Below, piece after piece: positions 8,504 through 27,469 of a stretch of DNA of 33,523 nucleotides. The position numbers and the translations under genes were made by a program. The stretch is from NCBI GenBank assembly GCA_903789415.1, contig CAIFEG010000003.1, forward strand, positions 1 through 33,523, written 5' to 3'. Each line of letters begins with the position of its first letter. The first letter of the stretch is position 1. Under the pieces are notes generated by a model that saw nothing but the letters and a program-made list of their open reading frames with translations, was not told where the DNA came from and did not search any database. The DNA comes from an uncultured Eggerthellaceae bacterium. GTDB lineage: Bacteria; Actinomycetota; Coriobacteriia; Coriobacteriales; Eggerthellaceae.

Positions 8504-9561
8504 TTTTCTACGATCTCCTTCAACGTGGCAACCAGCGTGTCCATCTGCTCCGGCGTTCCGATGGTGATGCGCACCCAATCGGCAATGCGAGGCTGATTCC
8601 AGTGGCGCACGAGAATTCCGCGCTGTTTTAGCTCGCGGTATATGTCTTCCCCAGCAAACCCGGGGACCTTAGCGAAAATGAAATTAGCTTTTGAAGGAAG
8701 GACTGTTGCTCCCAACGCCGAAAGCGCTTTTTCGGTCTGTTCCCTGGTCGCCTCAATTTTCTTACAATTTGCGGCGTAGTAACCGTTTTCATCGATGGCG
8801 GCTTCGGCCAGAATCAGCGAAAGTGCGTTTACGTTGTACGGATTTGTGGAGTACTGGATCATCTCCAGGTCGCGAATGACGCTTGCATTGCCGATCGCAA
8901 AGCCCAGTCTGCCTCCGGCAAAGCTGCGCGATTTGGAGAACGTCTGGGACACCAGCACGTTATCAAATTCCTTGATCAACGGCACCGATGTTTCCGCCCC
9001 AAAATCCACGTATGCCTCATCTACCAACACGATGCGGTCGGTATTCGCCTTAGCAATTTTTGCGATGTCGTCGAGCCCCAGCGCAAGCCCCGTAGGAGCA
9101 TTCGGGTTAGGAATGACCACATTGGCAGGTTCTGCACAAAACGCATCAACGTCTATCGTCATGTCATCTGCCAGCGGCACTTCGCGGTAATTGATGCCAT
9201 GAAGTGCAGCGATGACCTTGTAGAAGCTATAGGTGATATCCGGAAACAGCAGGGTTTCGTCATCATCGGTGAAGGCTAGAAACGCGAAATTGAGGATTTC
9301 ATCTGAGCCGTTGCTCAAGAAAACGTTCTCTTCGTTGACGCCATAGAGCTTCGCAATCTTTGTTTTCAGGCGATGTCCCGTAGGGTCAGGGTACAGACGA
9401 AGGCGCTCCATGTCGGTCTCTTTTAAGGCTTTGACCACCCCCGGTGCCGGAGGATACGGAGATTCATTCGTGTTCAGCTTGATGTATTCACGATCCTGCG
9501 GCTGTTCACCGGGAGTATAAGCCTCGAAATCCTGATAGCGTTTCCTTAGGAATCTGCTCAT
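8500..9561 (-). CDS. hisC: Histidinol-phosphate aminotransferase HisC
   Basis: This 353-residue PLP-dependent class II aminotransferase would transfer an amino group from glutamate to imidazole acetol phosphate. The expected motifs occur in order: LNTNESPYPP near the N-terminus, SNGSDEIL for cofactor phosphate binding, PNPNAPTG, VDEAYVDF, and the Schiff-base lysine Lys210 in SQTFSKSRSFAGGRLGFA. The C-terminal GILVRHW and WVRITIGT segments match HisC. An AAGGAG ribosome binding site precedes the ATG. It lies 42 bp after hisD and overlaps hisB. Bacteria may also use HisC for tyrosine and phenylalanine transamination, but the operon makes histidine the main role. Confidence 0.95.
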   Translation of the reverse strand: MSRFLRKRYQDFEAYTPGEQPQDREYIKLNTNESPYPPAPGVVKALKETDMERLRLYPDPTGHRLKTKIAKLYGVNEENVFLSNGSDEILNFAFLAFTDDDETLLFPDITYSFYKVIAALHGINYREVPLADDMTIDVDAFCAEPANVVIPNPNAPTGLALGLDDIAKIAKANTDRIVLVDEAYVDFGAETSVPLIKEFDNVLVSQTFSKSRSFAGGRLGFAIGNASVIRDLEMIQYSTNPYNVNALSLILAEAAIDENGYYAANCKKIEATREQTEKALSALGATVLPSKANFIFAKVPGFAGEDIYRELKQRGILVRHWNQPRIADWVRITIGTPEQMDTLVATLKEIVEK

Positions 9562-9603
9562 CGCAACTCCTTCTGCCTTTCCTTCTTGAGCGCTTGTACC
9601 GCG

Positions 9604-10878
9604 TTAACGGTTGTTACTACGAATCAGTGCGCTGCGAGCGTGGCCACTTAGGCCTTCCGCCTCAGCAAAGCGGGCAATCTTTTCCGCTGCGGCATCAAGG
9701 GCATCAGGCGTGTAGTAGGAATACTGCATGCGCTTGACGAAATCATCCACGCCGAGTGGGCTCGAGAATACCGCTGTTCCGCTTGTTGGCAGCGTGTGAT
9801 TTGGACCCGCATAATAGTCGCCCAAAGCCTCCGGACAATCGCGACCCAAGAAGACCGATCCCGCATTTTTGACCTCTTCGAGATACTTAAACGGATCGTC
9901 GACGCACAGTTCGAGGTGTTCAGGGGCAATTTCGTTGGCAACATCGATCGCCTTGTCAAGATTGTCCGTAACAATGATTTTCCCGTTGTGCTCGATCGAC
10001 GCGCCCGCGATTTCTTTACGCGGCAAGACCGACAGTTGTTTATCCACTTCAGCTTGCACCTTTTTGGCGAAATCAGCCGAGTCGGTGATCAACACCGCAC
10101 TGGCATACTTGTCGTGTTCCGCCTGAGAGAGCAGATCGGCCGCCAAAAAGTCGGGGCGCGTTTTATCGTCGGCAACGACCAAAATCTCGGAAGGACCAGC
10201 GATCATATCGATAGCCACCTGACCAAAGACCTGCTTTTTCGCCTCGGCGACAAATGCATTACCGGGGCCGACGATCTTGAAGACGCGTGGCACGGTTTCG
10301 GTTCCATAGGCCAAAGCCGCGATAGCCTGCGCACCCCCAACCTTAAAAATCTGGGTCACACCAGCGATGTGAGCAGCCGCTAAGATGTTCGGGTTCACCT
10401 TGCCACCCGTGGCAGGGGTAGTCATGACAATCTCTGAGCAACCAGCCAGTTTTGCGGGAATGACGTCCATCAGCACGGTGGAAGGATATGCTGCTGTACC
10501 ACCAGGCACATAGACGCCCACCTTTTCAATCGGCATGACTTTCTGCCCCAGGACCACACCGTTTTCCTCTTTAAGTTCGAAGCCCTCGCGCACTTGATTG
10601 CTGTGGAAGCGACGAATGTTTTCGGCGGATTCTTTGATCACGTCGAGCAGTTTTGGATCGACCGTCTCAAACGCTTCATCGATTTCTTCTTTGCTTACCT
10701 TGAAGTCGTCCTGGTCGTAGTGATCGAACTTCGCGTTGTATTTTCTGATCGCGGCATCCCCGTTTTCACGAACGTCCGCGATGATATCTTTAACCGTATC
10801 CTCAACATCGGCGGGCATGGTGTTCCGCTTGAAGATCTCTTGTTTCTTGTCATCACTGTATTTCATTATGCGCATCAT
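9604..10878 (-). CDS. hisD: Histidinol dehydrogenase HisD
   Basis: This 424-residue zinc enzyme would carry out the last two steps, oxidising L-histidinol through the aldehyde to L-histidine with two NAD+. Family landmarks are visible: VYVPGGTAAYPSTVLM, a KVGGAQAIAALAYGT segment, the signature KIVGPGNAFVAEAKKQVFG, DMIAGPSEILVVAD, an AEHD motif, a second HLELCVDD motif and the C-terminal SGHARSAL. Length is normal. The start at 10878 has AAAGGA upstream. Internal ATGs at codons 2 and 5 would change little. It stands 53 bp after the HisZ-HisG fusion, the second widest gap in the operon. Confidence 0.96.
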   Translation of the reverse strand: MMRIMKYSDDKKQEIFKRNTMPADVEDTVKDIIADVRENGDAAIRKYNAKFDHYDQDDFKVSKEEIDEAFETVDPKLLDVIKESAENIRRFHSNQVREGFELKEENGVVLGQKVMPIEKVGVYVPGGTAAYPSTVLMDVIPAKLAGCSEIVMTTPATGGKVNPNILAAAHIAGVTQIFKVGGAQAIAALAYGTETVPRVFKIVGPGNAFVAEAKKQVFGQVAIDMIAGPSEILVVADDKTRPDFLAADLLSQAEHDKYASAVLITDSADFAKKVQAEVDKQLSVLPRKEIAGASIEHNGKIIVTDNLDKAIDVANEIAPEHLELCVDDPFKYLEEVKNAGSVFLGRDCPEALGDYYAGPNHTLPTSGTAVFSSPLGVDDFVKRMQYSYYTPDALDAAAEKIARFAEAEGLSGHARSALIRSNNR

Positions 10879-18375: not shown

Positions 18376-19185
18376 TTATCCCTTTACTGCGGGAGCTTCT
18401 TGAGCCGTTTGCGTAGCCTTCGCAGAAGCGGTTTCTTCATCGGAAGGAGCTTGATTTGCGTTCACATCTTCCAGAGCACTTTCACGGGCATCATCTGAAG
18501 GATCATCCACGTCGTTATCCTCTAGAAGTTCATTTAAGAACTCCAAGTCATTTTCGAGGAAGCCCGAAGTGAGCAGCCCAACGCCGCGATAGAAATCAGT
18601 AAGCGCAAATTTTTTGATATCATCTGCCATCATGGGATACCAGCTGCAAAGATGATCCTGCAAGAAATTTCGTTGCTTCATAAGATACGAAAGGCACGTT
18701 TCGGTGTCTCCTTTTTCATATGCGTTTAAGGCACGCTCACCGATGATCTGCTCATATTCAAGCTCAAGAGAAATATGATCCTCTCCCTCGCCCCATGATT
18801 CGGTCTTCTCAAGGCCCTCTGAGCGATAGATCACCAGCACTTCATCGCGTGCATCTTGCATCAAAAGACGGCGAGGGCTGGTATATACACTTTCGTAGGG
18901 ATACGCTGCAGAATATGCATCATTCCCCAGTCCAATAAAGGCATGCACGTAGTCCTTTGCTAAATCCTGCAACACACTTTCATTTCCACGAGAAAGATAC
19001 TGCCTGATGAGTTTGTATCCCTCGTCAACATCTTTATTTCCCGTTTCAGCCGGATACTTCATGGTCATAAGCGTGTCCAAGAAATCCTGATCGACTTCCA
19101 CACGAAAAAGCCGTGCAAGAAACTGATAGGTCGCTCTGCGTCCGCGCAACACCGAAGCAAAATCAATCGTATTGTTTTCAGCCAT
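18376..19185 (-). CDS. TorD/DmsD family molybdoenzyme chaperone
   Basis: This 269-residue, mostly helical protein is of the TorD family, cytoplasmic chaperones that hold a Tat-signal molybdoenzyme until cofactor is loaded. The family traits are a helical N-terminus (RRATYQFLARLF), an AYPYESVYTSPRRLLMQDARDEV stretch after an acidic helix, and a later DHISLELEYEQ... segment with an NFLQDHLCSW motif. The C-terminal 50 residues are acidic and low complexity, longer than usual. The frame has an ATG at 19194, but the ATG at 19185 keeps AGGAG at a usable distance (11 bases against 2). It is the clearest link between this operon and the reductase at 24395, which has a Tat signal. Confidence 0.85.
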   Translation of the reverse strand: MAENNTIDFASVLRGRRATYQFLARLFRVEVDQDFLDTLMTMKYPAETGNKDVDEGYKLIRQYLSRGNESVLQDLAKDYVHAFIGLGNDAYSAAYPYESVYTSPRRLLMQDARDEVLVIYRSEGLEKTESWGEGEDHISLELEYEQIIGERALNAYEKGDTETCLSYLMKQRNFLQDHLCSWYPMMADDIKKFALTDFYRGVGLLTSGFLENDLEFLNELLEDNDVDDPSDDARESALEDVNANQAPSDEETASAKATQTAQEAPAVKG

Positions 19186-19199
19186 TGTTATCATTTCTC

Positions 19200-20195
19200 C
19201 TACGCAAATACCTGTTTAAATGCTTTGGCACCATCGTCGGTAAGCTGCCACGTTCCTTGCCAGCGGGCCGCGTTACAACGCTCGAGCCGCCCCAAGAAAT
19301 ATGTGCAGAACCTGCGTGGTTCTTTTAACAGCGGGTCGGAATCAACAGCTTTGTTTAAATCTGCCACCGCACAACCGCCGTCGACATTCATAAGGTTGTA
19401 TATGCGCTCATAAATAGGCAGATATTGCTCTTCTTCGGTGATTACTTGAACAATAGGATCCGTGCCAATATTCTTATCAACGGCCTCTATGCCGGCAGCT
19501 GTTGCAATGAAGCGTTCTTTGGGAGCTTGCTCAATAACTTCAGCTTGTTCTTCAAAGACCGAAGAATCTATGGAAAGATCTTCCACATCAATTTGCTCTT
19601 CGCCTTCGATATCGGCTTCTACCTCTTCTTGCTCTTCAGGCATTTCATTTTCATCAACTTCGACGTCCCGCACTTCGGGATTCGTGCATTCGATGGCCCC
19701 TGCCTTTTCGAGCAGTTCGATGAGTCTGCTCGTCTCATATACGCTCCCGCCTTGGGGATATTCCGCATCTACGGACGCTTCAATTTCCGATGCCGTCTTT
19801 TCGCCCGACTGGCACGCTTGCACCACGGCGAGAATGCGATACTTCTGCCCTGCGATACCCTTCAACAGGTTTTCGATACGCTCAGACGCGGGGAGTTCAA
19901 CGGGTTCGGGAATAACGCTTTTATCAGCATCAGGAATGGGCATTTGATAATCATTTGGAGGCTCTTCCTTATTGTCTTCCTCGACAACGTCGGCATCTTC
20001 TAAAGGATCAAAGTCATCATCGAGCTGGAAGAGATCTTCGTCGTCGGCATAATCATCATCTGTGAGCGGATCTTCGCTGGCGAATTCGTTCTCACCGGTA
20101 CGTTGATCTTCGGTGGCAAATTGGTCCTCACCCGTACGTTGATCTTCATTAGCGCATTGGTCTTCGCTAGTAAACTGATTTTCTTCTTCGTTCAT
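19200..20195 (-). CDS. Acidic protein with winged-helix-like segments and hexapeptide repeats
   Basis: I do not recognise a named family for this 331-residue protein. Residues 9-44 are six tandem hexads with the pattern x-x-Glu-Asp-Gln-x, followed by a strongly acidic stretch to about residue 85. Two segments look like winged helices: about 105-180 (an ILAVVQACQSGEKTASEIE helix-turn-helix-like region ending AGAIEC) and the C-terminal 80 residues (ending in a WQLTDDGAKAFKQVF wing). Between them is another acidic linker. The start at 20195 has AAGGA 8 bases upstream and overlaps the preceding stop as ATGA. A location between the pseudo-helicase and torD suggests a role in maturation or regulation of the respiratory system. 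DNA or protein binding is inference. Confidence 0.6.
   Translation of the reverse strand: MNEEENQFTSEDQCANEDQRTGEDQFATEDQRTGENEFASEDPLTDDDYADDEDLFQLDDDFDPLEDADVVEEDNKEEPPNDYQMPIPDADKSVIPEPVELPASERIENLLKGIAGQKYRILAVVQACQSGEKTASEIEASVDAEYPQGGSVYETSRLIELLEKAGAIECTNPEVRDVEVDENEMPEEQEEVEADIEGEEQIDVEDLSIDSSVFEEQAEVIEQAPKERFIATAAGIEAVDKNIGTDPIVQVITEEEQYLPIYERIYNLMNVDGGCAVADLNKAVDSDPLLKEPRRFCTYFLGRLERCNAARWQGTWQLTDDGAKAFKQVFA
20064..20171. repeat. 18-bp-period repeat encoding acidic hexapeptides
   Basis: Six 18-bp units lie in frame in the 5' part of the acidic protein gene. A 36-bp super-unit is also visible: two copies share the core CGTACGTTGATCTTC on the plus strand. Each unit encodes x-x-Glu-Asp-Gln-x or a close variant. 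Confidence 0.8.
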
Positions 20196-21970
20196 TTTTG
20201 AGATCCTTCCCCGCCTCCGACGGCTAGATATTGGCATGGCACTACGCGTGCCATTTGTTTTTTGTTGTGTACATAAATGCGCGACACACGCATGTTCAGC
20301 GTCACGGCGTTTTCAATGCGATCGTGATCAAACAAGGTGCAATAGACGCGTTCACTCGCGCGCGAGAGAAGATCGCGATATAAACGTTCATCGCGTGCAC
20401 GCGCTTTGTTTTTGTGGTCGATCGTAAAGGAATCGCTTAATGCATCATTTTTTGGAATAAACCCACCGATCATGCCCGTAATGATTTCTGCTTTGCAGTA
20501 GAGCGCGTGGCACACATCGTATGGAGCAATCTGCACTCCTGTCCCGTGGACGCACGCGTGCTTTGGCAATGCATGTGTATATAACCGCTGAAGCGAAATT
20601 CCTGATGCGTCTTCATCTATATATGTTTGCTGCTTGTCGGTAAGCGAAATATCCGCGCGCGCAAACGCTTCAACAGCATCTTTGGCTGTTTTAGCTTGGG
20701 AGAGATCATCTCGCAGTGCATCGAGTTCATCTAAAGACGCATTGATTTTAGAGAACGCCTTGGTATCAGAGGGATTTGCGCGCATTTGTTTAAGCGCTTG
20801 GATAAGGCCACAATCATCGTGGTCACGCGAATACGCCAGGACTTCCAAAAATGGTTCAGAGCACATAAGCCAATCGCCGCAACCAATCCAGGTGCGGAGT
20901 GCGACAAGATCGTTTGGATCTTTCTGAAGTTTTGCGAATGCGGCGAGTTTTATCTTTCCGCATGTTTCCGTGTGGCGCGGATCACCATGCACCTTTTCAT
21001 CATTGGAAAGATAGGCATGTGGCATTCCCGCTTTGTCGAGCTGCTTCCCAATTTTATTTGCCCATATGCCATTGGGAACAGCGATAAGAATATCGTTTGC
21101 GTCTGTCCCTTGTTGCTGCTCAGAGTCCACAATGTCTTTGATACCCGCAAACTCTTCTACCGGTGTTGCAAATGAAATGGTCTTTTGTTTTGCGGAATGC
21201 TGCGGCGCGGCAATGGTAAATGTTTCTACGCTTGCCTGATCGGCCCACAACGTAAGTCCCTCATGAAATGGGTAATCTTCGTCGGGTGAAGTTTCTGCTT
21301 CGATGCAACCGAAAACCGTCATGGTATTGTGCGAAATCGTTTGCAGAAGCCGCTGAGAAGACTTGCTCATTGCTCCAAAATCGACCGCCACAATATACGA
21401 AGGTGCGCTTGCATCTGGCACAGCATCAAGGCCCTCGCAGGCGCGCAACGACGCTTCTTCAGGGACAACTGCCTTCCGAATGCGCAAATTTTCGGTGAAA
21501 ATGGCATAAACCTTTTTCTCTTCTTGGTTTACCAGCCAATAATCATCATCGGTGGCGCAGTCGGCCAGACTCTTAAAAAAGAATTTCATCATTTCGCGCA
21601 GGCGATGAGGAGCCACACCACAAACTTTCACGTCTTCCATTAAGACATCAAGTTCGTTGCCATCTAACACACGGCCCGAACGCCCTGTTGCGGCAATCAC
21701 CCGACTGTCATTGAGGATTTGTGTCGCGATATCACGTACCCAGTGCACCGAAGCATGTTCGTCATTTTGAAGCAGCAAGCCCAAGCGTGCCGCAGACCAC
21801 CGATCAGCGCAGACCACACACACCTGTTGCCCCGCTGCCTCATGAGTCTTGACGCACGAAACTACCGCATGCGCACAATCGGTCGCAGAATCATGCAGTA
21901 CACAAGCATTTTGTTGAGATGAAAAATATGAAGAAAGTTCCTCTACAGAAGGAACTGATTGAGCACTCAC
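20192..21970 (-). CDS. UvrD-like pseudo-helicase (Walker motifs lost)
   Basis: This 592-residue protein has the layout of a UvrD/AddB-type superfamily 1 helicase but not its catalytic residues. At the Walker A site (about 24-33) the usual GxGKT is replaced by HDSATDCAHA. The Walker B site (194-199, VAVDFG, then a SSQRLLQ helix) has Asp-Phe where Asp-Glu is needed. Near the C-terminus, IITGMIGGFIPKNDALS and ARDERLYRDLLSRASERVYC mimic UvrD motifs V and VI (ERRLFYVALTRA), again altered. I take a GTG start at 21970, preceded by GGAGG at 5 bases. The ATG at 21982 has no spaced ribosome binding site. It heads the accessory operon, so it may act as a scaffold or binding protein rather than a motor. 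The ancestry call is from motif pattern only. Confidence 0.6.
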   Translation of the reverse strand: MSAQSVPSVEELSSYFSSQQNACVLHDSATDCAHAVVSCVKTHEAAGQQVCVVCADRWSAARLGLLLQNDEHASVHWVRDIATQILNDSRVIAATGRSGRVLDGNELDVLMEDVKVCGVAPHRLREMMKFFFKSLADCATDDDYWLVNQEEKKVYAIFTENLRIRKAVVPEEASLRACEGLDAVPDASAPSYIVAVDFGAMSKSSQRLLQTISHNTMTVFGCIEAETSPDEDYPFHEGLTLWADQASVETFTIAAPQHSAKQKTISFATPVEEFAGIKDIVDSEQQQGTDANDILIAVPNGIWANKIGKQLDKAGMPHAYLSNDEKVHGDPRHTETCGKIKLAAFAKLQKDPNDLVALRTWIGCGDWLMCSEPFLEVLAYSRDHDDCGLIQALKQMRANPSDTKAFSKINASLDELDALRDDLSQAKTAKDAVEAFARADISLTDKQQTYIDEDASGISLQRLYTHALPKHACVHGTGVQIAPYDVCHALYCKAEIITGMIGGFIPKNDALSDSFTIDHKNKARARDERLYRDLLSRASERVYCTLFDHDRIENAVTLNMRVSRIYVHNKKQMARVVPCQYLAVGGGEGSQK

Positions 21971-22080
21971 GTTGACCTCCATCCTGTCTTTAGGATGGAG
22001 CCCCTGCCTGAAGCCCCCTAAGCTCCATACAAGTGCTATTACCTAGAAAGTATTACCCACAAAAAATGTGATGTCTACAA
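21971..22080. promoter_or_regulatory. Leader region with a 7-bp inverted repeat
   Basis: ATGGAGC (21995-22001) and GCTCCAT (22022-22028) form a perfect stem around 20 bases, just upstream of the pseudo-helicase gene. There is no T-run, so a terminator for the preceding regulator gene is unlikely. On the minus strand TTGTAG and TAATAC with a 19-bp gap could be a weak promoter for the accessory operon. Confidence 0.3.
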
Positions 22081-22611
22081 TCATTCCAAATTCGAATACA
22101 TAAGCCGTAAGGCTTGCTCTTTGCTGGACACCTGAAGCTTTTTATATGTCTCCCCCAGCATCTGAGCAACATGATCGCGTGAAATTCCCTGTTCAGAGCC
22201 TATTCTATCGATGCTATACCCCGACAGATATAAAACAAGGACGCCGATTTCTTCCGGGTCTAAACCCTTTTTTGCACCAACCTTACGGCACGCATATTTG
22301 AGATATGCATCTGGACCAGAAACGTCGGTGCGTATCGTTTCGCCGTAATGGCCGCGTACCTGTTTGATTTCATCGCGCGCAGCCTGCAAATCTTCAAGGA
22401 TTTGCACCGAGTGTTTCAGCAGCACATTCCCCTCTTTTGTCATGCGCACTCCCTGTTTGGTACGAACGAAAAGGTCACAGTCGAAGGTGCGTTCAAGCAC
22501 TGCAATGTGCTTGCTTAAGGTGGATTGCGTCATATGTAATTGACGTGCGGCTTCGGTGAAACTTTTGCAGTCAGCAAGAACTGAAAATTCGCGAAGATAT
22601 GAAACGTCCAT
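22081..22611 (-). CDS. Two-headed regulator: LysR-type HTH joined to a LuxR-type HTH
   Basis: This is a 176-residue cytoplasmic protein. Residues 1 to about 62 are a LysR-type winged HTH (YLREFSVLADCKSFTEAARQL, then TQSTLSKHIAVLERTFDCDLFVR, then MTKEG), followed by the linker helix usual in LysR dimers (to about 88). In place of the 200-residue LysR ligand domain, residues 117-176 form a LuxR/GerE-type HTH (LDPEEIGVLVLYLSGYSIDRIG, then ISRDHVAQMLGETYKKLQVSS). No ligand domain is left. The ATG at 22611 is preferred over 22620 because GAGGA is then 9 bases upstream. It overlaps the LuxR gene (ATGA region), and the pair probably controls the divergent reductase. Confidence 0.8.
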   Translation of the reverse strand: MDVSYLREFSVLADCKSFTEAARQLHMTQSTLSKHIAVLERTFDCDLFVRTKQGVRMTKEGNVLLKHSVQILEDLQAARDEIKQVRGHYGETIRTDVSGPDAYLKYACRKVGAKKGLDPEEIGVLVLYLSGYSIDRIGSEQGISRDHVAQMLGETYKKLQVSSKEQALRLMYSNLE

Positions 22612-22616
22612 GATGA

Positions 22617-24080
22617 TCATTCCTCATTCGCGATTTTTTCAGCGAGGTCAATTAAAGCCTGACGATTTTCTGCACCCGTCTTTTTATAAATATGACGAAT
22701 GTGGGTGCTTACGGTTCCTTGGGAGATAAAAAGTGTTTCCTCGATACGAGAAATTGTCCTGCCTTGTATAAGCATGGGCAAGACCTCGCCTTCGCGCGGA
22801 GTTAAGCCATACCTCTTTGCAATAATGGCACATACGCGCTTTGAGCTTGGTGAGCGGTGTCTATGTATTTCAGTCTTTTGCGCGGTTTGCTCTGCATTAG
22901 GCTGAGCAGGTGCGATATGGAAGAAATCGTTGAAGAAAAACAGGTGCACGAAGAATAACCACAAAACTGAAATGAGCGTTATCAAAGGCAGCATGTCTTG
23001 CGCAGGGTTGGCTCCTATTGCGTTTGCCAAGAGCTCACCGACAACTTCACCACCATACACCGCTGCATAGCTCAACGCTAAAAGTTTTGTAATACCAAGT
23101 CCAAATGTTTTGTTGAGTTTGACACAAGCGGCAAACAGCACCACAGAAAATGCGAGATAACCTGCAAAAATAAGGTATCCGGCAAAACTTGAACGATCCC
23201 GTAAAAACAGAGTACTCAAGCATCCTGCGCAAAATACAAAAATAGCGATGCGATATACCCACGAAAGATTGTCATGACGAGGTTTCACACATATTGCCAG
23301 AACACACGCCATCATGACCATTCCGCCAATAAATAAGAATATGCCGTATTCATCGGCAACTTCAAATGATCGATATCCGGTGAAAACGTCAAAAAATCCA
23401 GCAATAAGCCCAAACGAAACGACCCCGATGGTTCCTTTCAATAAAAGCAGCGAAATATGTTTCGGCACCTGGCCAGGTAAAATATTGTCAACAGGATGTT
23501 CGACCGTTCGCGAGGAATGCCACAGAAGAACACCCGATACCGCTGGCATGGCAGCAACAACAATGTCGGCAAAAATGCTTGGCGTTGCATTTAAGACAAG
23601 CCCAATCGCAAACGCAAGTAAAACTCCCAGAGTAAGTTCTATGATGCTTTCACGCTCAACGTCAGAAAAAAGCTCGAGCCAGCAAACAAAAAGAGCCGCA
23701 GATCCAAGCCCTGTAGCCAGTGCACATCCACCGAGTGCCAAGATTCCAACGGTATCAGAAAGATTAATAAAGAAACCGACAATAGTGCCCACGGTCATCG
23801 CCGCAGCCGCAAGGATAATGATGAGGTGGTTCTGCCGCATCACCTCATCACGACGCGCAACAATGCCAATAAAAATGAGCATAATCGTCGCTGAGCTTAA
23901 CGATACGAACATATTCATATAGAGCGAAGAGCGGATATCGGCGCTCATGAGATAGGGCACAATACTATAGAAAAGCATAAATACCCAAACTCGATCGCAT
24001 GCAAAACCAAGTGTGCGTTCGAGCGAAAGTGATTTTGTTTGAACTATTCGCCCGGATGGCGACGCAGTTCCATCACTCAT
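22617..24080 (-). CDS. Multi-pass membrane LuxR family regulator
   Basis: This 487-residue protein has a short N-terminal tail, about 12 hydrophobic helices (about residues 30-390) and a C-terminal LuxR HTH (about 421-487). The HTH reads YGLTPREGEVLPMLIQGRTISRIEETLFISQGTVSTHIRHIYKKTG. Such transporter-like LuxR proteins are abundant in Eggerthellaceae, typically next to molybdoenzyme genes, and are thought to sense a substrate at the membrane. The frame extends to 24236, but GAGGGGG six bases before 24080 and a normal N-terminus favour that start. It is divergent from the reductase at 24395 and overlaps the LysR-LuxR gene. The inducer is unknown. A respiratory substrate of the neighbouring reductase is the natural guess. 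Confidence 0.85.
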   Translation of the reverse strand: MSDGTASPSGRIVQTKSLSLERTLGFACDRVWVFMLFYSIVPYLMSADIRSSLYMNMFVSLSSATIMLIFIGIVARRDEVMRQNHLIIILAAAAMTVGTIVGFFINLSDTVGILALGGCALATGLGSAALFVCWLELFSDVERESIIELTLGVLLAFAIGLVLNATPSIFADIVVAAMPAVSGVLLWHSSRTVEHPVDNILPGQVPKHISLLLLKGTIGVVSFGLIAGFFDVFTGYRSFEVADEYGIFLFIGGMVMMACVLAICVKPRHDNLSWVYRIAIFVFCAGCLSTLFLRDRSSFAGYLIFAGYLAFSVVLFAACVKLNKTFGLGITKLLALSYAAVYGGEVVGELLANAIGANPAQDMLPLITLISVLWLFFVHLFFFNDFFHIAPAQPNAEQTAQKTEIHRHRSPSSKRVCAIIAKRYGLTPREGEVLPMLIQGRTISRIEETLFISQGTVSTHIRHIYKKTGAENRQALIDLAEKIANEE

Positions 24081-24394
24081 AAAAGTCCCCCTCGAAAAAA
24101 TTTCCCTCACAAAAATAATACCAGGCAATGTGCAGAAATGATTTGCAAACCATGGAACGTATTGTATAAAGAAATGCATTTTCTTGAATCTTACCTGTTC
24201 ACAGCGTCTCATAATTACGGCCGACCGAAAGATCATAACTTTTTATGATGCCGTTTCGCCCACTTACGCCTTCTGTTTGATAGGCAAAACCTCTTTATTT
24301 TCGTACCTTTACGACATTGCGTTGAACCCCCTAACACTCTGCTATCAACGCAGTCAAAAAAAGAAAAAGGGAGAGAAAGAAAAGGAGGAGATAC
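24081..24394. promoter_or_regulatory. Divergent promoter region between the regulators and the reductase operon
   Basis: This 314-bp gap holds no gene. It contains two strong inverted repeats. The first, 24232-24249, is ATCATAA-CTTT-TTATGAT and includes a T-N11-A core as in LysR boxes. The second, 24318-24352, is an 8-bp perfect pair TGCGTTGA...TCAACGCA around 19 bases. Candidate boxes for the plus strand (TTGAAC, 15 bp, TATCAA) overlap the second repeat. For the minus strand, TATTAT at about 24115-24120 could be a -10. AAGGAGGAG immediately precedes the reductase start. Confidence 0.5.
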
Positions 24395-27300
24395 ATGGGT
24401 GATTTAACTATGTCGCGTCGAACGTTTCTAAAAACCGCGGCAATAACCGGTGCAGCGGCAGCTGTTTTAGGAACGTCTGAGAAAAGCGCCTTGGCAGAAG
24501 ATACGTATCCAGAAGTTTCTGGCCAAGATACCGTGGAAGTTAAAACATGTTGCCGTGGTTGCGGCAAAATGGAATGCGGCGTTAAAGTTATTGTCCAAAA
24601 CGGACGTGCCATCCGTGTTGAAGGCGACGAAGGCGCATTTCAATCAATGGGTAACTGTTGTACGAAATCGCAATCGTCAGTCCAAGCAGCATATCATCCA
24701 GATCGTCTGCACTACCCCATGAAGCGCACCAATCCAAAAGGCGAAGAGCCTGGTTGGGTACGCATCTCGTGGGATGAAGCAATGAACACCATCGTTGAGA
24801 ATTTCCAAGACATCATTGCGAAATACGGTGGCGAATCCATTGCTTGCCAGGTAGGCACCTCTCGTGTTTGGTGCATGCATTCTGAGTCCATCTTGAAAAA
24901 CATGCTGGGAACCCCAAACAACATTGAGGCATGGCAGATTTGTAAGGGACCACGCCACTTTGCAACCACAATGGTTGACCAGTTTGCTATGAGCTGGATG
25001 GAAACGATCACGCGTCCGCGCGTCTATGTACAGTGGGCAGGAGCTTCAGAGCTGTCCAACTACGACGATAGCTGCCGTACTACCGTTGATGTCGGTACTC
25101 GTGCTGACTATCACATCAGTGTTGACCCACGTATGGCAAACTTTGGTAAAGAAGCTGACATCTGGCAGCATCTTCGCCCGGGCACTGATGGCGCATTGGC
25201 ACTGGCATGGACCAATGTCATCATTCAAAAGCATCTTTATGATGATCTGTACGTAAAGAAATGGACGAATGCACCATTTTTGGTATGCGAAGACTTCGAT
25301 CAGGATTGGATGCAGCAAAACGGCTTCCCTTCAGTGCGTACCGATGGTTCATATTGGCAGGTGACAACCCACCTGTTAAAGGAAAGCGACATCAGAGAAG
25401 GCGGCAGTCCATTCAAGTTCCTCGTCTACGACAACAACTGGCAACAGCTTGCCGCGCAGGGTGTAACCCACGAATACGGTGCGTTCACCTGGTTCAATGC
25501 AGACCAGGAAGCACGCATCGATAATACCGGTGGATTCTGGGAAGGCGAAAACTACGAAAGTGTCGCCGCACGTGAAACGGGAAAAGAAGCCAACCAAGCA
25601 AATCTTTTACCCGGCCAGATCCAGGGTTGGGTGCCTGATCTTCTTCCATTTGATCCTGCAATTGACCCTGCGCTTGAAGGTGAGTTCCAGATCACGCTTA
25701 AGGATGGCCGCAACGTTACGGTCAAGCCCGTGTGGGAATACTACAAAGCACGTGCTGCCGAATATGATTTGCAAACCGCAGAAGAAATTACCGGTGTTCC
25801 CGCCGATGATATTGAGCGTGCTGCTACGATTTACGGCACACGTCTGGATCCTTCGACCGGTTACGGCAACGGCGGTATTCAGTATATGCTCGCCCAAGAG
25901 CATGCGTGCAACGCGATTCAGAACAGCCGTGCGCTCGACAACTTGGTAGGTATTACCGGAAACATGGATACCCCAGGCGGAAACCGTGGACCAACCATTG
26001 TCCCAATCGACGGCGACTTGCAAGGATTTTCTGCATGGGCACCTGGTGCAAGCACCCCTGCTCCAGAAATTAACCAGAAGCAGATCGGCGACCAAAAGTT
26101 CCCACTTTTGTCCTGGTGGCAATATTGGTGCGACGGTCCAACTATCTACGATGCAATGATCACCTCCGATCCATATCCTGTGCGTGCGCTTTGGAACGAA
26201 TCAGGTGACTTCTTGTCATTCGCGAATACCACCCGTGCATGGGATGCACTTTGCAGTCTGGATTTCATGGTTGACTTGAACCTGTGGCACACCCCTTCCA
26301 CCGATGCAGCCGACATTATTCTTCCTGTTGCCCACTGGATTGAGCTTAATTCTCCACGTGCAAGCCAGGGTTCAGCAGGAGCTATGGGTGCAACCGTAAA
26401 ATGCGTCCAGCCACCTGCAGAAGCAAAATACGATCCTGAAATTGTCATGGATTTGGCTCGTCGTATGAACTGGAAATGGACCAATGAGCCAGGCAACGAA
26501 TGGCCTGATATTAATTGGCAGTTAGCCGATGCAATCAAAGAGCTGAGCGACGACGAAACCACCTGGACCGAATACCACGTGCATAACGGCCAAGTTAGCT
26601 TTGATCGCCATGGCGTTGAGCTTGCAAACCTTACCCCGAAATATAAGACCTGGGATGAATACGTCGCAGCCTTCCAAGAACATGGCTGGTGGCAAGCGAA
26701 AGAGATCGACCCACGCAACTGGGGCACCTACCGTCGTTATCAGACAGGCGCACTCCGCGCACGCGATCGTGTGTGGGCTCGTCTGGACTACACCTCTGGC
26801 AAAGGCATCGGCGACTGGAAACCAGGGTTCTTTACTCCAACAATGAAGCAGGAGCTTTGGTCAACCGTCATGGAAAGCCATGAGCCTGATCATCCAGAAT
26901 GGTTCTTGCCAAGCTGGACCGAACCACCTCATGGACCAAAAGATGGCGATCGTATCAAGGAATATCCACTCACCGCAACAACAGGACGTCGTATTCCTGT
27001 CTACTTCCACTCAGAGCATCGCCAGCTTCCGTGGTGTCGTGAGCTTTGGCCGGTACCTCGTATCGAGATCAACCCAGAAACCGCAGCTGATTATGGTATT
27101 GAACAAGGCGACTGGGTATGGATTGAAACTGAATGGGGCAAGATCCGCGAAGTTGCCGACCTGTACTACGGCGTCGATAAAGATGTCGTGAACTTGGAAC
27201 ACACCTGGTGGTATCCAGAGCTTTCCATGGATGCAGGCCACGGATTCCAACTTTCTGCCGTAAACCAGTTGATCGACCATCATGCTCAAGATCCAATTTG

Positions 27301-27469
27301 TGGTGCATCTAACTTGCGTGCCTATCAGGTAAAAATCTATAAGGCAACCCCTGAGAACAGCCCATTCAACAACCCTGTTCCATGCGGCTCTGATGGCACC
27401 CCAATCATTCACACTTCGGACGATCCCCGCCTGAAGGAATGGCTGCCTGACTATGAAGGGAGGGATTAA
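24395..27469 (+). CDS. Tat-exported molybdopterin oxidoreductase, DMSO reductase family (catalytic subunit)
   Basis: This is a 1024-residue catalytic subunit. A twin-arginine signal (SRRTFLK, residues 7-13) precedes a cleavage region near residue 35. A 4Fe-4S site uses Cys in CCRGCGKMEC (52-61) and NCC (88-89). By comparison with formate dehydrogenase, Cys183 in QICKGPRHF aligns with the molybdenum ligand, so this belongs with cysteine-ligated members rather than serine-ligated DMSO reductases. The C-terminal dinucleotide-binding domain (about 860-1005) has YFHSEHRQLPWCRELWP and WWYPE, as I recall for the acetylene-hydratase-like and catechol dehydroxylase-like clade of Eggerthellaceae. It is the first gene of a three-gene operon with FeS and membrane subunits. 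The substrate cannot be assigned. The start is supported by AAGGAGG. Confidence 0.85.
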   Translation: MGDLTMSRRTFLKTAAITGAAAAVLGTSEKSALAEDTYPEVSGQDTVEVKTCCRGCGKMECGVKVIVQNGRAIRVEGDEGAFQSMGNCCTKSQSSVQAAYHPDRLHYPMKRTNPKGEEPGWVRISWDEAMNTIVENFQDIIAKYGGESIACQVGTSRVWCMHSESILKNMLGTPNNIEAWQICKGPRHFATTMVDQFAMSWMETITRPRVYVQWAGASELSNYDDSCRTTVDVGTRADYHISVDPRMANFGKEADIWQHLRPGTDGALALAWTNVIIQKHLYDDLYVKKWTNAPFLVCEDFDQDWMQQNGFPSVRTDGSYWQVTTHLLKESDIREGGSPFKFLVYDNNWQQLAAQGVTHEYGAFTWFNADQEARIDNTGGFWEGENYESVAARETGKEANQANLLPGQIQGWVPDLLPFDPAIDPALEGEFQITLKDGRNVTVKPVWEYYKARAAEYDLQTAEEITGVPADDIERAATIYGTRLDPSTGYGNGGIQYMLAQEHACNAIQNSRALDNLVGITGNMDTPGGNRGPTIVPIDGDLQGFSAWAPGASTPAPEINQKQIGDQKFPLLSWWQYWCDGPTIYDAMITSDPYPVRALWNESGDFLSFANTTRAWDALCSLDFMVDLNLWHTPSTDAADIILPVAHWIELNSPRASQGSAGAMGATVKCVQPPAEAKYDPEIVMDLARRMNWKWTNEPGNEWPDINWQLADAIKELSDDETTWTEYHVHNGQVSFDRHGVELANLTPKYKTWDEYVAAFQEHGWWQAKEIDPRNWGTYRRYQTGALRARDRVWARLDYTSGKGIGDWKPGFFTPTMKQELWSTVMESHEPDHPEWFLPSWTEPPHGPKDGDRIKEYPLTATTGRRIPVYFHSEHRQLPWCRELWPVPRIEINPETAADYGIEQGDWVWIETEWGKIREVADLYYGVDKDVVNLEHTWWYPELSMDAGHGFQLSAVNQLIDHHAQDPICGASNLRAYQVKIYKATPENSPFNNPVPCGSDGTPIIHTSDDPRLKEWLPDYEGRD

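Follow-up and report, generated by a model that had tools for sequence, protein, structure and literature searches.

The dopamine-dehydroxylase locus of gut bacteria includes a regulator that has so far been without an assigned role. As described in the main text of PMC9734109, the E. lenta locus comprises dadh, the gene for a 12-transmembrane (12-TM) LuxR activator, DadR (Elen_0473), and the gene for DadS (Elen_0474). DadS is presented there simply as a 'LysR-type regulator', and the main-text passages on it mention neither a missing effector domain nor a GerE-like domain. What kind of protein is DadS, and which part of the locus might it control? We approach these questions from a 33,523-nucleotide stretch of an uncultured Eggerthellaceae genome (contig CAIFEG010000003.1, assembly GCA_903789415.1; hereafter the window), whose relevant features are collected in Table 1. 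An initial annotation of this DNA had noted, next to a multi-pass LuxR protein, a regulator that joins a LysR-type to a LuxR-type DNA-binding domain (DBD) and lacks a ligand domain.

Sequence comparison identifies the window gene as the ortholog of DadS (Elen_0474), because of the shared locus layout, the pattern of Ser506 and Arg506 in the reductase, and an enzyme that is 84% identical. It has dadR on one side and dadhD-F on the other, runs divergently from dadhABC, and matches its E. lenta counterpart both in this placement relative to dadR and the accessory genes and in architecture; the multi-pass LuxR neighbour is indeed the DadR ortholog. The same gene order is common to all 12 DadS loci and agrees with the order dadh, dadR, dadS in the main text of PMC9734109: a reductase operon (a Tat-exported molybdopterin enzyme with Fe-S and membrane subunits) is divergent from the membrane LuxR gene, dadS, and then accessory genes for a helicase-like protein, a hypothetical protein and a TorD chaperone. 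Position 506 of Dadh is Ser in one locus (G095), in agreement with the polymorphism of E. lenta DSM 2243, whose Dadh is the published Ser506 variant (PMC9734109, main text), and Arg in every other locus, the window included.

Table 1. Features of the dad locus in the window (positions in nucleotides of the window, or in residues of DadS where stated).
Feature	Position	Strand	Remarks
dadhF homolog, TorD-like chaperone	18379..19194	-	homology
dadhE homolog, hypothetical	19203..20237	-	listed ORF; true start probably internal
dadhD homolog	20195..21970	-	UvrD/PcrA-helicase-like; GTG start 21970; named DadhD in PMC11887054
Conserved leader, hairpins by dadhD ribosome-binding site	21968..22028	-	sequence conservation
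Putative accessory-operon promoter	22049..22077	-	directly downstream of box; sequence conserved across dad loci
Predicted DadS operator ATTC-N7-GAAT	22083..22097	.	ATTCCAAATTCGAAT; 4/5 arm pairs; overlaps dadS 3' end
dadS ortholog	22081..22611	-	176 aa, ATG at 22611, single intact ORF
DadS, LysR DBD	residues 1-61		
DadS, linker helix	residues 59-87		
DadS, disordered linker	residues 88-100		
DadS, degenerate GerE-like domain	residues 102-176		
dadR ortholog, membrane LuxR, C-terminal GerE	22617..24080	-	start by homology
Predicted DadR operator ATCATAA-N4-TTATGAT	24232..24249	.	sole exact copy in window genome
dadh (dadhA) ortholog	24395..27469	+	Tat-exported molybdopterin enzyme, 84% identical to E. 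lenta Dadh, Arg506

Several observations on the other genes of the locus may be recorded here. Arg506, as found in the window Dadh, is the form correlated with dopamine metabolism among E. lenta strains. The dadh gene of Raoultibacter timonensis (G117; L126 11593-15741, L204 4234-8350) repeats about residues 588-941 in tandem and so forms a 1382-aa frame, whether genuinely or through an assembly error. The DadhD homolog has no Pfam match, and the profile of its family gives a weak match to UvrD/PcrA helicases (E 0.003), in spite of the respiratory-operon setting.

A search for the same architecture across the class Coriobacteriia, as the initial annotation had suggested, recovered it in 12 Eggerthellaceae genomes from 6 genera, including Raoultibacter timonensis, Rubneribacter badeniensis, Paraeggerthella hongkongensis and Gordonibacter sp. 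An230; outside the family there was no DadS match at E 1e-30 in samples of the class (398 genomes) and the phylum (396 genomes), each with one genome per species. Presence in 6 genera rules out confinement to the gene's own genus. Family members share about 40-45% identity, and 11 of the 12 are intact. In the twelfth (G096; L128, about 9470-10040) the gene is split by a frameshift in its GC-rich linker, which may be real or a sequencing error. Two dad-type loci, those of G065 and G112, are without DadS. Other short LysR ORFs (L131, L132) and a LysR gene at the end of contig L129 proved not to be hybrids.

The architecture first read from the window is confirmed: DadS consists of a LysR DBD and linker helix followed directly by a LuxR/GerE-type fold, with the effector domain missing. 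Pfam assigns residues 6-61 to HTH_1 (E 7.7e-20) and residues 119-170 to GerE (E 1.2e-5; 25.2 bits for the whole protein, cut-off 23.5; 22.8 bits for the domain alone and 22.2 in a search of its own genome), and this second domain scores higher with GerE than with unrelated helical domains. No match to LysR_substrate (PF03466) is among the Pfam families listed for 11 DadS members, the window protein included; DadS is thus LysR-derived, not a complete LysR-type transcriptional regulator. That the GerE assignment reflects real homology follows from a profile-profile comparison (hhalign) of 9 DadS C-termini with 5 DadR GerE domains (probability 98.2, E 3.9e-14, 67 columns). The E. lenta DadS scores just 12.1 bits against GerE, which may be why the domain went unremarked in earlier work; it is absent among the 90 matches listed for a GerE search of the E. 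lenta genome, all of at least 37.7 bits. AlphaFold2 models reach a pLDDT of 82.6 for whole DadS and 93.2 for the C-terminal domain alone (six family members). In the predicted fold, residues 1-88 resemble CbnR_DBD, taken from the CbnR DBD-DNA complex, with Z 15.5; for residues 109-175 the structural matches are StyR, RcsB and NarL, at Z about 10 (9.8 for the NarL-DNA structure 1je8). The possibility that a frameshift has cut a normal LysR gene here, raised with the initial annotation, is ruled out: the window gene has no frameshift, and 11 genomes keep the architecture free of stops, with G096 the only frameshifted member.

The N-terminal LysR end of DadS is apparently kept and working in DNA binding. 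DadS shares the winged HTH, the linker helix and a (predicted) palindromic T-N11-A-type box with LysR-type regulators such as CbnR and BenM, but has a GerE-like domain where these carry a LysR_substrate effector domain. The GerE-like domain shares the four-helix HTH fold and the dimer helix of LuxR/FixJ/NarL GerE domains; these keep their recognition-helix contacts, whereas DadS has lost them and is acidic (mean domain charge -5.7). The TVxxH motif of the recognition helix (scored as TVxxH/Y, with A accepted in place of T and either A or T in place of V) occurs in every one of 31 ordinary GerE domains (from the E. lenta and window genomes) and of 11 DadR proteins, but in none of the 11 intact DadS. 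Window DadR has the canonical helix TVSTHIRH, a GerE domain found by Pfam, and 39-41% identity to other DadR proteins. The mean charge of the recognition helix is -1.6 in DadS versus +2.2 in the GerE domains and +2.0 in DadR. Identity to DadR drops most in this helix (0.23, versus 0.55 for other GerE domains), is slightly reduced in helices 1 and 2, and is hardly reduced in the dimer helix (0.39 versus 0.41). By these sequence measures the GerE-like domain is degenerate, its DNA-contact residues gone in all 11 members and its LuxR dimerising helix retained. The initial annotation had reasoned, from one chain with two HTH folds, that a DadS dimer would present four DNA-binding heads and could loop or bridge the divergent promoter; four such heads are unlikely because the recognition helix has lost its contact residues and reversed its charge.

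Where did such a protein come from? The domains closest to the DadS C-terminus belong to three proteins of 387-389 aa (in G021, G066 and G036) that combine HTH_1, LysR_substrate and a GerE-like C-terminus, a count that may be low, as only 3 sequences went into the family profile. These three-domain proteins share the reductase setting and the predicted box of DadS, but keep the effector domain that DadS is without. In the nearest LysR loci, ordinary or three-domain, of which 12 were examined (L020-L031), the LysR gene adjoins a Dadh-like reductase gene and is divergent from it; the G021 and G066 proteins fall among these, and the third, that of G036, comes from another family. The same reductase accompanies all three; genes like dadhD, dadhE and dadhF lie on the three-domain protein's side of it in G021 and G036, and no DadR-like protein was found in the three-domain loci. 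In a tree of GerE domains, the three-domain and DadS domains form one clade (support 99/98), apart from DadR and the other GerE domains, which rules out that the domain was copied from neighbouring dadR. DadS looks like a three-domain protein minus its effector domain. Its ancestor would have been a one-component regulator (LysR DBD, effector and GerE-like domain) of the kind still standing alone in the sister loci, and the effector domain would have been lost in loci where sensing falls to DadR, the 12-TM LuxR protein.

This ancestry bears on the idea that DadS works mainly by contacting DadR, its GerE-like domain pairing with the GerE domain of DadR via the dimer helix and thereby either tethering this membrane regulator to the locus or antagonising it. 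An acidic domain with a conserved dimer helix and a lost recognition helix would suit that role, as would the fact that dadS always adjoins dadR in an operon-like pair. The GerE-like domain is, however, already carried by three-domain relatives at loci without DadR and clusters with them rather than with DadR, and hence did not arise for DadR; moreover, DadR-dependent dopamine metabolism was unimpaired when dadS was deleted (PMC11887054). We regard contact with DadR as the main activity of DadS as possible but unlikely. Somewhat less probable still is a hand-over of sensing in which the ligand domain was shed on arrival of the 12-TM LuxR protein and the GerE-like domain became a docking surface for DadR; membrane-bound DadR would then act at the accessory operon through a domain that already did not read DNA.

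Two distinct dyads in the locus point to separate operators for the two regulators. The first, ATCATAA-N4-TTATGAT, lies between dadR and dadh and is the sole exact genomic copy in 6 of 8 genomes tested; dad loci that lack DadS have it as well, as an exact copy or with 1-3 mismatches, and no three-domain locus has it. The simplest reading of this distribution is that it belongs to DadR. A further dyad, TTATNCTANTTTNAGNATAA, is found upstream of dadR in the dadR-dadh region of most loci among L118-L126, and is absent from that region in the window and in G129, which is why no regulator was assigned to it.

The second dyad, ATTC-N7-GAAT, is found at the dadS 3' end in all 12 loci with this gene (homologous loci, as in all our counts across them, and not independent observations), once per region except in G129; the window copy has one arm mismatch. 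It recurs about 8 bp ahead of the start codon in all three three-domain genes, with a chance of occurrence in these promoters of about 0.02, 0.01 and 0.008 (jointly about 1.6e-6), and also in two additional loci (L025, L026), where it lies between a LysR gene and its reductase. Five dad-type contigs without detected DadS, 4 of them short or partial, do not have it. E. lenta has one more ATTCC box (L227), which falls within the gene of a paralogous reductase and was discounted as a chance occurrence. The simplest reading of this co-distribution is that the box belongs to DadS and its relatives. Its position, upstream of the accessory operon, does not favour the proposed bridging of the divergent promoter: the window's divergent region is without this LysR-type box, and G129 is the only locus with a copy there in addition to that at the dadS end, a pattern in favour of bridging. 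Together with the lost contact residues, this makes a four-headed, bridging DadS dimer highly improbable.

Directly downstream of the box, the putative accessory-operon promoter has a -35 hexamer TAGACA (22072-22077), a 17-bp spacer and a -10 hexamer AATACT (22049-22054), the hexamers being assigned by eye. The leader that precedes dadhD (ATGAAGC...GCTTCATCC...GGATGGAGG) is strongly conserved over 21977-22028, also in L118-L127 and L226, and has hairpins that could cover the ribosome-binding site; no Rfam family matches it, and it occurs as well in G065, a locus without DadS.

Published data constrain what DadS might do at this promoter. Dopamine is reported to co-induce the accessory genes dadhD-I, with dadhD-H indispensable for dopamine metabolism by a plasmid-borne dadh cluster in Gordonibacter urolithinfaciens (PMC11887054). 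Deletion of dadS from the same plasmid-borne cluster left dopamine metabolism unaffected (PMC11887054), so DadS is not an essential activator in that assay, although a role might be hidden by transcription reading through from dadRS, or by the plasmid's copy number. The level of DadR protein rises with dopamine (PMC9734109, main text). Based on the co-induction, the deletion result and the rise of DadR, we propose that DadS tunes the accessory operon, its amount following that of DadR. Dopamine would be sensed by DadR, acting through ATCATAA-N4-TTATGAT on dadh and on its own operon, and DadS would be made together with DadR because DadR acts on that operon. A LysR-type dimer of DadS would occupy ATTC-N7-GAAT at the dadS 3' end, a short way ahead of the accessory -35, and tune the dadhD-I promoter (helicase-like protein, TorD chaperone, ferredoxins), more likely as an activator because the box lies at about -48, ahead of a weak -35. 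The GerE-like domain would not read DNA, and may serve in oligomerisation or protein contact instead. DadS would be dispensable where read-through or plasmid copy number provides the accessory genes. The architecture, the orthology, the degeneracy of the GerE-like domain, the sister proteins and the shared distribution of the boxes come out of the computation itself, and from these we infer DadS binding, the direction of control and the part played by the GerE-like domain; taken as a whole, the model of a sensorless, formerly three-domain DadS, supplied along with DadR and tuning the accessory operon through its box, is in our judgement somewhat better supported than not. Counting against it are, besides the deletion result, the G065 and G112 loci without DadS, the frameshift in G096, the mismatch in the window box and the second box in G129.

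Some of the same facts would also suit a DadS that is a decaying, functionless remnant left after DadR took over sensing: its absence from the G065 and G112 loci and frameshift in G096, its low-complexity linker of varying length, and its dispensability in the G. urolithinfaciens assay (PMC11887054). Against decay, however, DadS is intact in 11 genomes of 6 genera; dN/dS is 0-0.3 in the DBD (mostly 0.06-0.35 in the C-terminal domain, unreliable in pairs with very low dS); and the operator dyad within dadS is conserved using codons that are otherwise in the minority in these GC-rich genes. We consider a mere remnant improbable, and favour tuning of the accessory operon.

New here are the reading of DadS as a LysR protein without a sensor, its LuxR fold that would not read DNA, its three-domain relatives, and the separate predicted operators of DadS and DadR. 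Together these make the question of how the dad locus is controlled directly testable on short DNA fragments.
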